64,000 nt of DNA from an uncultured bacterium. Its GTDB lineage: Bacteria; Acidobacteriota; Thermoanaerobaculia; Thermoanaerobaculales; Thermoanaerobaculaceae. The position numbers and the translations under genes were made by a program. Location: NCBI GenBank assembly GCA_937924755.1, contig CALEVZ010000031.1:1-64000 (forward strand), in the 5' to 3' direction. How positions within the stretch are numbered: the first letter of the stretch is position 1; each line of letters starts with the position of its first letter. The notes beneath the pieces were generated by a model. It did not search any database. It had not been told where the DNA came from and saw only the letters and a program-made list of their open reading frames with translations. Of the stretch, positions 57,295-61,270 are shown in pieces.

Positions 57295-58788
57295 TTACAG
57301 CTCGTCGGCCTTGGTGGAGATGGGACCACGATAGTTCCGCCGCAGTCGCACCTGCGCAACCACCGGGCCGAAGCCTCGATAGGCCTGCTTGATCCGGGTC
57401 AAAGCGTTGGATTTCCAGTCCACGTAGGGGTTGTCGATTTGCACCGGGTCGAGGCAGCCGGCGAGGACGACCTTGGAGGAAGCGCAGAAGCGGCTCATGA
57501 GGGTTTTCGCCAGGTGCCGATCGCCGTTCTGGAGCTCGTCCACGAGCACCAGGGAGTTCTCGATATCCAGGCCGCGTAGCAGCGATGTGGACAGCAAAGT
57601 GAGACGTCCGGTCGCCTCCAGCTGGCCCTGAAAGTCGTGGCCGTTGGCCAGGGAAACGCCGCGAATCGCCTGGAAAAACGGTTCCAGCCACGGAGAGAGC
57701 TTCTCGTTGTGGTCCCCCGGCAGGAACCCCATTTCGAACCGGGAGGACGAATACTCCGGACGCAACAGGATGAGCCCACCTTCGAAGGTGCCGCCGTTTT
57801 CTCCCAGCGGCTGGGAACGGCGGTGCAGCTTCATGGCGGTCGGCTGTCCACAAAGCAGGTATAGGGCGGCAATGACCATCAGCCGGGTCTTGCCCGAACC
57901 CGCCGGTCCGTCCAGCACGAGGAGCTGAATGGAGGGGTCGAGGAGGAACTCCATGGCGAGAATCTGCCGCGGATCGGCCGGGGTGAACGACAGGATGGTG
58001 CGGGCAACCCAGGTGGAGCGACGCGAATCCCAGTACTGCGCGTGACGCAGCTCTCTGGCCACGCCGCCATCAAGATCGACGCGGGCGAGCACCTCGACCG
58101 CTCCGGCGCGCAGAACCAGCCCTTGGTTCCACTGCGGGTCGGGCAGCTGCTCGGCGAGCGCCGCCAGGGGCAAGAACCGCTCGCCCGGTTCCCCAGAGGC
58201 CGAAAACCTCTCCACGAGCTCTAGTGGGACCTCGAGCTCGGCGACTCCGTCGTAAACGTCAGCCAGACTGGCGAGGTCGAGCTTTCCGTAGCGCAGGGGC
58301 TCGGCCAGCAGGCCGACGGCGTCGCAGCGCAGCAGCATATTGGAATCCTCGGAGATAACCACCAACCGGTAGCGCCCGTTGCCGTTGCCTAAGGCTTGCA
58401 AACGGCGTACCGCCTCGATGATCGCTCCGTCACCATCGCCGTCGCCGGGGCATGAGTTCCCCGGCGGCTCCCAGGCCAGCACCCCACCCCCCGGGGTGGG
58501 GGGGAACGCCTCCAGAGGGGCTTCCCCTGCGAGCAGACGGTGGATGTCATGGTGAATCACCGACAGGGTGCGATAGCCGAGGATCTTGCGCGTGGCAGTG
58601 CGCGCTGCCATGCGCACCCCCTCAGACTTAGCCCGGCTCGACTGCAGTCGGCCGAGCTCGTCGAGCACCTGCCGCAGCAGGATAACGACATTGCCCGGCT
58701 GCAGGAGCCGGTCGAGGACATCGGGGTTTTCCACGATGGCACTGGTGTCCGGAATGTAGATGTGGGCGGGGACCATGTCGTGAGTCAA
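57295..58788 (-). CDS. PIN domain-PhoH ATPase fusion (PhoH2-like)
   Basis: This 497-residue protein has an N-terminal PIN nuclease domain (YIPDTSAIVENPDVLDRLLQ, LVVISEDSNMLLRCDAVGL, with acidic residues at the expected places). A C-terminal PhoH-type ATPase follows, with Walker A LDGPAGSGKTRLMVIAALYL, Walker B SLVLVDELQNGDRHLAKTLM and VVLAGCLDPVQIDNPYVD. PhoH2 proteins couple helicase and RNase activity in RNA turnover and stress. An alternative start lies at the fifth codon (MVPAHIYI). The gene follows the cyclase-like protein on the minus strand, 40 bases away. Confidence 0.9.
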   Translation of the reverse strand: MTHDMVPAHIYIPDTSAIVENPDVLDRLLQPGNVVILLRQVLDELGRLQSSRAKSEGVRMAARTATRKILGYRTLSVIHHDIHRLLAGEAPLEAFPPTPGGGVLAWEPPGNSCPGDGDGDGAIIEAVRRLQALGNGNGRYRLVVISEDSNMLLRCDAVGLLAEPLRYGKLDLASLADVYDGVAELEVPLELVERFSASGEPGERFLPLAALAEQLPDPQWNQGLVLRAGAVEVLARVDLDGGVARELRHAQYWDSRRSTWVARTILSFTPADPRQILAMEFLLDPSIQLLVLDGPAGSGKTRLMVIAALYLLCGQPTAMKLHRRSQPLGENGGTFEGGLILLRPEYSSSRFEMGFLPGDHNEKLSPWLEPFFQAIRGVSLANGHDFQGQLEATGRLTLLSTSLLRGLDIENSLVLVDELQNGDRHLAKTLMSRFCASSKVVLAGCLDPVQIDNPYVDWKSNALTRIKQAYRGFGPVVAQVRLRRNYRGPISTKADEL

Positions 58789-58828: not shown

Positions 58829-61156
58829 CTACCCCAGGGCGTGGTGAGGCGACGCCAGCAAGGAGGCGAAGTAGCCGGACCGGCTGCGCAGCGATGCCAG
58901 CGGGATGGTCATGCCGGCGCTCCCACGGCTTAAACCCTGGTAGAGAGTCGCCAGCTCGTCCCGGCGGCGGAAAAGCCACGCCTCCACGGGTTCATCTACC
59001 GACGCCTTGGCAAGGGGCAAGGGGTGCGCGTTCAGGACAGCGTCCCGTTCCCGGCTGTAGATGCCCACGTACCAGCGGCGCAGCGCGTAGTCGTCGAGGG
59101 CGCTGACGACGCAGAGATCCGGAGGGATAGCGACGCCCTCCGCTGCCTGCAGGTGGAAGCCGGTTTCTTCCACGCGGCCCGCCAGTCGGTGCAGGGTCTG
59201 CACCAGGGAGCCACCTGGTTTTAGCGGCTCGCTATCCGAGGGGGGCTGATCCAGCACCACCATTTCCACCAGCGGACCCGGGTCGATCCCCTTGAGGCGG
59301 GCGCTACCCAGCAGCCGCAAGCCGATCCATGGCTTCTCCGGCTGCGCTGCGTCGAAGGGCAAGAGCAACCACTGCAGGCCGTAGGCTTCGGTGCGCCGCA
59401 ACGGGGTCTCGACGAGTTCCGTCTCGAGATCGGCGAGAAACGACTCGGTGACCACGCCGCCGAGGTTGATCAACTCGCCGTTTTCGGCCAGAAAGGCGGC
59501 GTAGGGGCGCTCACGGGCGTGCTCGGGCAGGCGCGACTCGTGCCGGACCGGTTCCAGAAACTCCAGCACGCGGTTGATGTCGTACCCGGCAGCAAGGAGA
59601 AAATCAGTGATGTCGTCGACTTCCTTGGTGGTCTTGCCGGTGGTGAGGCGCGCCAGCTCGACGAGGGCGTGCCCGAAGAACTCGAAGTGGGGGCGGGTTT
59701 CCTTGCCCGTGCCCATGGGGACCAGGTGGTAAGTACCAACGTTGGCGGCGAGCCGGAGGCCGCGGTCGAAGGGAAACCCCTGTCGACGCAGACGCTCGTA
59801 GAGGATCCTCAGCTCGGCGGCGGCCAGGAGGACGGGACGGGCCGAGCGCGCCGAGTAGAACGCTCCATCCCCCAGGAACTTCTCGAACTTGAGCCGATGT
59901 CGGGCGCGGATCTCTTCGACCTGCTGAAGAAATTTCGTCATCGACAGCAGCGCCTGTTGCTCCCACTGTCTTCCCCGTCGCCGTTGTTCCTCCAGCTGTT
60001 GGGTGAAATCGGCCAGGTCGTACAGCAGCCCGTAACGCCTCACCGCCGAGTCGGTGACCCCGGGGTGGGTGAAATCCAGCGGGCGAGTGGCGGGCGAGAG
60101 CGTAAAAAACTGCGTCCCCAGACGCGTGACGATGCGCTCATTCTGCGCGGCCACGGGAAAGATGGCACGCCGCAGGGCTGCCACCACCTCAAAGCGCGTG
60201 AGCAGGCCCTCGAGTCGCTGCAGGATCTGCACTTCCAGGGCAATGAGAGACGGCGCCTCGGGGTGTTGCCAGTGGGAGAGCAGGGTCAAAGCCCCCGAAT
60301 GCAGGAGCAATCGAGCAGGTGCAAGGGTTTCCAGGTCCTTTTCCAGCAGGCTCAAGGCGGCGCGGAAATTGTGATCTCGCGCCATCAGTCGCTCCAACCG
60401 GGGAGCCACCTCTTGCAGCAGCCGCACGAACTGCTGGCGGGAGAGGCGCAGCGAGCGTTCCACGTACGCCGCCAGGCCCGTGAAGGAATCGCCGACCTCG
60501 TCGAAGGCCCACGGCAGCAAGTCCCGGCGCAGCAGTTCGGCCACGGCCAGGGGATCGCCGCCCGGTGCAAGTAACCCGCGCCGCTCCAGGCGGGCCACAG
60601 CCTCAACCTCGGCCCGCCGGCAGATCTCGGCCAGCCGCTCGCCGATGGTGAGCCGGATGACTTCGACCTCCTCGCGTTTCCCCTGTGGAACCCTGGAGGC
60701 CACGTCACGGATCACCTGGGCGATGGCGGCGGTGGCCTCCCGCGTGATTACCAACCACAGCAGCTCCGGCAGCCGCTGTCCGTGGTCGTGGGTGAGCGCA
60801 TTCTCCAGCGACTGGGAGAACCCCTCCGCAAAGGCCCGCCGCTGTTCCACCAGGCCGACCTTGTCGAAACGCTCCTCGCGCAGGAGGGCAACACGGTACT
60901 CCGCCTCGGTTGACACCAGGCGCCCCAGTTGACGGCAGAAAGCTTCCCACTCCCGCGACACCCGCAGGGGAAACCCCAGCGCCACCGGTCGCACCTCATC
61001 GTCGCCAAACAGCCAGTAGGGGTGGGGCAAACGGTCGGCGAGGGTGCCCCAGGCCTCTCGCCATCCCCCGGCTCGCTGCTGCGCGGTGAGAAAGCCGCCG
61101 CGGCGGCGGCTCGATTCCAGCAGGTGCTCGATGGTGGTGGGCTCCGCTCCGTGCAT
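58829..61156 (-). CDS. large protein with divergent class III nucleotidyl cyclase-like domain
   Basis: This 775-residue protein starts at ATG 61154-61156. The N-terminal half (1-370) is helical and unrecognised. Residues about 374-505 fit a class III cyclase core: LLYDLADFT aligns with the first metal-Asp motif (D380), KFEKFLGDGAFYSAR with the second (D430), and FEFFGHALVELARLTTG with the G-x-x-VN-x-AARL motif. The spacing between them is also plausible. The C-terminal 270 residues include PilZ-like or receiver-like beta segments I cannot assign. It could make a cyclic nucleotide or be a catalytically dead sensor. No known family name is recognised; it precedes the PIN-PhoH gene. Confidence 0.7.
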   Translation of the reverse strand: MHGAEPTTIEHLLESSRRRGGFLTAQQRAGGWREAWGTLADRLPHPYWLFGDDEVRPVALGFPLRVSREWEAFCRQLGRLVSTEAEYRVALLREERFDKVGLVEQRRAFAEGFSQSLENALTHDHGQRLPELLWLVITREATAAIAQVIRDVASRVPQGKREEVEVIRLTIGERLAEICRRAEVEAVARLERRGLLAPGGDPLAVAELLRRDLLPWAFDEVGDSFTGLAAYVERSLRLSRQQFVRLLQEVAPRLERLMARDHNFRAALSLLEKDLETLAPARLLLHSGALTLLSHWQHPEAPSLIALEVQILQRLEGLLTRFEVVAALRRAIFPVAAQNERIVTRLGTQFFTLSPATRPLDFTHPGVTDSAVRRYGLLYDLADFTQQLEEQRRRGRQWEQQALLSMTKFLQQVEEIRARHRLKFEKFLGDGAFYSARSARPVLLAAAELRILYERLRRQGFPFDRGLRLAANVGTYHLVPMGTGKETRPHFEFFGHALVELARLTTGKTTKEVDDITDFLLAAGYDINRVLEFLEPVRHESRLPEHARERPYAAFLAENGELINLGGVVTESFLADLETELVETPLRRTEAYGLQWLLLPFDAAQPEKPWIGLRLLGSARLKGIDPGPLVEMVVLDQPPSDSEPLKPGGSLVQTLHRLAGRVEETGFHLQAAEGVAIPPDLCVVSALDDYALRRWYVGIYSRERDAVLNAHPLPLAKASVDEPVEAWLFRRRDELATLYQGLSRGSAGMTIPLASLRSRSGYFASLLASPHHALG

Positions 61157-61270
61157 CCCCGGATATTGTACGCTGACGCCCTCACCCGCAGACCTCCCGG
61201 TATCGCGCAAACCTTTGATATTAGCCTTGTTCGGCCGCCACACGAGGAGGAATCCTGGCCGGCGCAGCGC

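Follow-up and report, generated by a model that had tools for sequence, protein, structure and literature searches.

A protein of 775 residues, P0001, encoded on the minus strand of the window (the whole 64,000-nucleotide stretch of DNA that was analysed), contains a strongly diverged class III cyclase homology domain (CHD), as judged from its predicted structure and from sequence profiles. It is a diverged homologue of the class III cyclases and probably founds an unannotated subfamily. The function that we consider rather likely is that of a soluble class III nucleotidyl cyclase, belonging to this diverged and unnamed subfamily, which would form a cyclic nucleotide (cNMP). The original prediction, made from three short motifs, had offered either a new cyclase subfamily or a nucleotide-binding sensor. 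The strict conservation of the catalytic positions favours the first of these, while the loss of the transition-state asparagine leaves the sensor a certain weight.

The gene and its sequence motifs

The gene is a single open frame from an ATG to a stop codon, with exactly the boundaries that had been proposed (Table 1). An in-frame GTG at 61243 is an alternative start that would give a protein of 804 residues; the alignments of the homologues start near residue 1–10. The three motifs, LLYDLADFT (residues 377–385), KFLGDG (426–431) and FEFFGHALVELARL (491–504), are all present in P0001 with the order and spacing first described. Among 20,000 shuffled versions of P0001, none had the same triple in this order and spacing; because the pattern searched for (a regular expression) was derived from P0001 itself and has no match in ordinary CHDs, this result is weak when taken alone.

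The rest of the protein had been called unrecognised, and the searches agree with that description. P0001 has no match in Pfam or NCBIfam and no meaningful match by sequence in the PDB, where the sole profile match, a torsin-interacting protein (E = 0.27), was rejected as unrelated. Nothing of note came from the PHROGs and PADLOC searches. As for the family, 24 homologues lack any cyclase match in Pfam or NCBIfam, and none of 25 members reached the PF00211 cut-off in the Pfam search, a cut-off that is the detection threshold of one library and does not define the enzyme class.

Fold of the cyclase domain

The AlphaFold2 model of P0001, for which a 79-row alignment (A2) was used as input, has a mean pLDDT of 89.4. 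It comprises, in this order, a strand (371–381), two helices, a hairpin (423–428/431–436), a helix (439–458), two strands (467–481 and 490–494), and another helix (496–505), which is the class III order of secondary structure according to DSSP. The comparison of the model with the PDB by Foldseek gave 85 matches at E ≤ 0.001, and the best 50 of the 85 are all class III cyclases. The top match is CyaB (E = 1.3e-6, probability 1.00), and CyaC and Cya2 were also matched. The cyclase core that the original prediction called for is therefore found in the predicted structure. In addition, D380 ends β-1 and D430 lies in the turn of the β-2/β-3 hairpin, which are the canonical metal positions of class III cyclases; that both face one site, as had been anticipated, is deduced from the topology and the alignment.

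Profile–profile alignment, proposed at the outset as a check, leads to the same domain. With residues 345–650 of the P0001 family as query and 29 ordinary CHDs as target (one from its own genome, the others from relatives), hhalign gave a probability of 95.6, P = 1.1e-8 and a score of 64.3. By comparison, the best of 100 column-shuffled profiles scored 23.4 (P = 0.019) and the reversed profile 19.4. The N- and C-terminal parts of P0001 had no match to the ordinary CHDs in hhalign.

Outside this core, the N-terminal helical domain contains the conserved segments LPxPxxIFxxDE...GFP and FWLxHS. It has no fold match in the PDB at E ≤ 0.001, and 14-3-3 and similar helical bundles were discarded as weak look-alikes (E ≥ 0.27). 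The C-terminal 135 residues are absent from the shorter members of the family, of about 670 residues. Two features were added to the first description of the protein: the absence of the usual transition-state asparagine, and an insert of about 60 residues after the third motif, located between α-4 and the late strands and upstream of a G.L.NEG segment.

Table 1. Position in the window of the P0001 gene, its domains, its active-site codons and the adjacent downstream gene.
Feature	Position	Strand	Basis
Complete P0001 ORF, 775 residues plus stop	58829..61156	-	Open frame and alignment starts of homologues
N-terminal all-helical domain, residues 1–345	60122..61156	-	AlphaFold2, pLDDT 92.8, pTM 0.91
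Predicted cyclase homology domain with insert, residues 371–635	59252..60046	-	Foldseek against PDB class III cyclases; hhalign probability 95.6 against canonical CHDs
Family-specific insert, ~residues 506–565, ~60 residues, three to four helices	59462..59641	-	DSSP of the model
C-terminal extension, residues 640–775, in part of the family only	58832..59239	-	Shorter homologues end near 640–675
D380, metal aspartate 1	60017..60019	-	79/79; aligned with the LFAD/LFLD aspartate
K426, base-specifying lysine position (K-x-x-G-D)	59879..59881	-	79/79; profile alignments
D430, metal aspartate 2	59867..59869	-	79/79; profile alignments
E492, at the second base site, where Asp or Thr is usual	59681..59683	-	79/79 Glu; Thr in the P0003 family
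V499, transition-state Asn position, Asn lost	59660..59662	-	V in 75, I in 3 and T in 1 of the 79; Asn in the P0003 family
R503, transition-state Arg	59648..59650	-	79/79
K622 of the LKG motif, presumed phosphate-binding Lys	59291..59293	-	78/79, the other row a gap; inferred from position
PIN_4 plus PhoH fusion protein gene, directly downstream, ~40 bp gap	57295-58788	-	

Conservation of the active site

Conservation was counted in 79 homologous sequences, in all of which D380, E425, K426, G429, D430, G431, E492, G495, E500, R503, G507 and K508 are invariant. The claim that both metal aspartates are kept thus stands for D380 and D430; it does not extend to the other aspartate of LLYDLADFT, D383, which is not a metal position and is replaced among the homologues (D, E, N, A, S or R). 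Out of seven canonical class III positions, five are kept in P0001, one is altered (to Glu) and one is lost (the Asn). In class III cyclases the base-specifying pair is Lys/Asp or Lys/Thr for ATP and Glu/Cys for GTP; the corresponding pair in P0001 is Lys426/Glu492, both residues being invariant. E500 and the loop with the TGK motif (TGK508) are specific to the family and have no counterpart in ordinary CHDs, and it may be guessed that they substitute for the function of the lost asparagine. This loss need not be fatal to activity, because Ma1120, which has Ala at the transition-state Asn site, is an active adenylyl cyclase, whose activity is reduced or abolished when Asn is introduced at that site (PMC4215837). 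A diverged homologue (L031:2407-4098) carries GGG for GDG, and with it the loss of the second metal aspartate, and lacks the TGK motif; it is possibly a degenerate member.

Distribution and a related family

Homologues of P0001 with a frame free of internal stops were found in 47 of the 60 relatives searched, at one locus per genome save for one homologue split over two contigs. Every genome of the same order has one, and so do all those of the same family except one (74% complete). When the phylum as a whole was sampled, 18 of 297 gave a match at the threshold. Seventeen of them lie within the class, and the exception (G259), a weak match (E = 7e-4), was set aside on reading its sequence, which is that of an ordinary membrane cyclase that also has an HD domain. 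The 80 named homologue loci, among them loci of Thermoanaerobaculum, Candidatus Sulfomarinibacter and many MAGs, belong to the Acidobacteriota, class Thermoanaerobaculia, in which the window's genome would also be placed by its kinship with them. The protein has been retained across most of this class.

Searched with a profile, the phylum yielded a single protein outside the class that matches both domains of P0001, named P0003 here (G262, C45). Its family is found in 14 genomes (G262 and 13 relatives), all from one family of another class. Aligned to each other by hhalign, the P0001 and P0003 families match in the N-terminal domain with P = 1.8e-12 and in the CHD with P = 4.2e-11, and the P0003 family matches ordinary CHDs with P = 2.6e-20. 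Both families have the same N-terminal domain, a CHD, and the G.L.NEG segment after the insert, which is shorter in the P0003 family. Unlike P0001, the P0003 family has a near-canonical CHD in which the Thr and the Asn are present, and P0003 is detected by PF00211 (37.8 bits, for a cut-off of 21.9). In a tree of the CHD core the members of the P0001 family group together (support 100/100); their branch is very long and is not joined to the P0003 family. The program warns of long-branch effects, and the placement of the two families is unsafe. For this reason, their common descent rests on the profile matches in both domains and on the G.L.NEG segment. It is possible that the CHD core was swapped.

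Genomic context

In the window's family, the P0001 gene is located after comM and before the PIN-PhoH gene, on the same strand. At seven loci (L060:4809-5903 and six more) a cNMP_binding/DUF4388 gene is divergent from the homologue, at a distance of 40–180 bp; this neighbour is confined to one subgroup, a neighbouring family of the same order. Distant members have a purC-like gene (SAICAR synthase, by reading) downstream on the same strand at 28 loci (e.g., L115 and L107), with gaps of about 10–300 bp, and at one further locus the purC-like gene is on the other strand. Other lineages have comM/phoH or a gene read as rsgA. Most of the neighbours of the homologues are housekeeping genes, and a single functional partner deduced from the neighbourhood was rejected, since the neighbours (purC, comM/phoH, rsgA-like) differ by lineage.

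The genome that carries P0001 encodes nine cNMP-binding domains, which are therefore candidate receivers for a cyclic nucleotide, and one ordinary class III cyclase, its only PF00211-positive protein. This cyclase (L041, G000:C31:69641-70174) lies about 8.5 kb upstream of the P0001 gene on the same strand and contig, outside the window. Its architecture appears to be FHA-GAF-CHD, the FHA and GAF domains being assigned by reading of the sequence. The same spacing between the homologue and the ordinary cyclase, about 9–11 kb, is found in several relatives.

Proposed function and alternatives

As a cyclase, P0001 would work as a head-to-tail pair of chains, in which one chain would hold two metal ions with its D380 and D430 and the other would read the base with its K426 and E492, ATP being a more likely substrate than GTP. 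The triphosphate would be held by R503 and K622, and a 3′,5′-cyclic nucleotide would be formed although the usual transition-state Asn is missing, as it is in Ma1120. Dimerisation or signal input would be the role of the N-terminal helical domain. The targets of the product would be cNMP-binding proteins, and in one subgroup the gene of such a protein is adjacent to that of the homologue. A bolder version, which we regard as improbable, is that of a class-wide and vertically kept subfamily of cyclases whose active site has been rebuilt (Lys/Glu, no Asn, Glu500 and the TGK loop) and whose messenger would be other than plain cAMP, with the adjacent cNMP-binding/DUF4388 protein as its sensor.

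The transition-state Asn is lost in every aligned homologue, and P0001 might accordingly be a pseudo-cyclase, a sensor or scaffold to which nucleotide and metal bind, which signals the state of its CHD through the helical domain and makes no cNMP. The conserved extra helices around the site would suit such a role, as would the metal-site loss in L031 and the stable linkage to housekeeping, not signalling, genes in most lineages. However, pseudo-enzymes usually lose their metal ligands first, and in this family both metal aspartates, the base pair and the Arg are invariant in 79 sequences; moreover, class III cyclases can be active without this Asn. A pseudo-cyclase is for these reasons unlikely, although it has to be taken seriously.

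The peculiar base site raises another alternative. GGDEF and Cas10 domains are related folds that changed product, and P0001 could likewise be a nucleotidyl transferase of class III fold that makes a cyclic dinucleotide, a linear oligonucleotide, cCMP or cUMP. This would fit with the non-canonical K/E pair and with the invariant E500 and TGK motif, absent from ordinary CHDs. On the contrary, the layout of K-x-x-G-D, Arg and LKG that is kept in P0001 is that of a mononucleotide cyclase. Moreover, its sequence lacks the GG(D/E)EF motif of the GGDEF diguanylate cyclases, with KFLGDG instead, and the Pycsar cyclase PycC (PADLOC) does not match P0001 and matches only the related P0003, via its CHD. 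A different product of this kind is consequently improbable as well. Finally, the idea that three short motifs resemble those of cyclases by chance in an unrelated protein, for which the lack of family-library and PDB sequence matches could speak, is hardly credible and is refuted by the fold match, the profile–profile match, the related family above the PF00211 cut-off and the invariant catalytic residues.

If P0001 is indeed a class III nucleotidyl cyclase, its family would add an unannotated subfamily to the largest class of cyclic-nucleotide enzymes, and the Thermoanaerobaculia would gain a candidate core second-messenger enzyme. The family would also be a natural test of change in the class III active site (no Asn, Glu at the base site) with the other catalytic residues fixed, and the P0003 family, which keeps the Thr and the Asn, would let this change be dissected residue by residue.

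Comparison with known systems

The DUF2652 proteins (PF10851) of mycobacteria and Proteobacteria are predicted cyclases with a Lys-Glu pair and no Asn (PMC4886424). They resemble P0001 in the Lys-Glu base pair, the two metal aspartates, the Arg that is kept and the aliphatic residue in place of the Asn, and differ from it in being short single-domain proteins. P0001 was rejected as a member of this group: the PF10851 profile has no match in the P0001 family, and hhalign with three DUF2652 sequences gave P = 0.12. In the absence of a profile match to these three sequences, the likeness in residues is probably convergent. A Thermoanaerobaculia genome (G050) carries a DUF2652 frame (L189) that continues into an apparent methyltransferase domain.

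With the class III cyclases (PF00211; CyaB of Pseudomonas aeruginosa, CyaC, Cya2, Ma1120), P0001 has in common the two metal aspartates, the Lys of K-x-x-G-D, the Arg and the terminal LKG. It differs from them in Val in place of Asn, Glu at the second base site, the insert of about 60 residues after α-4, the invariant E500 and TGK508, a similarity below Pfam detection, and a new N-terminal domain.
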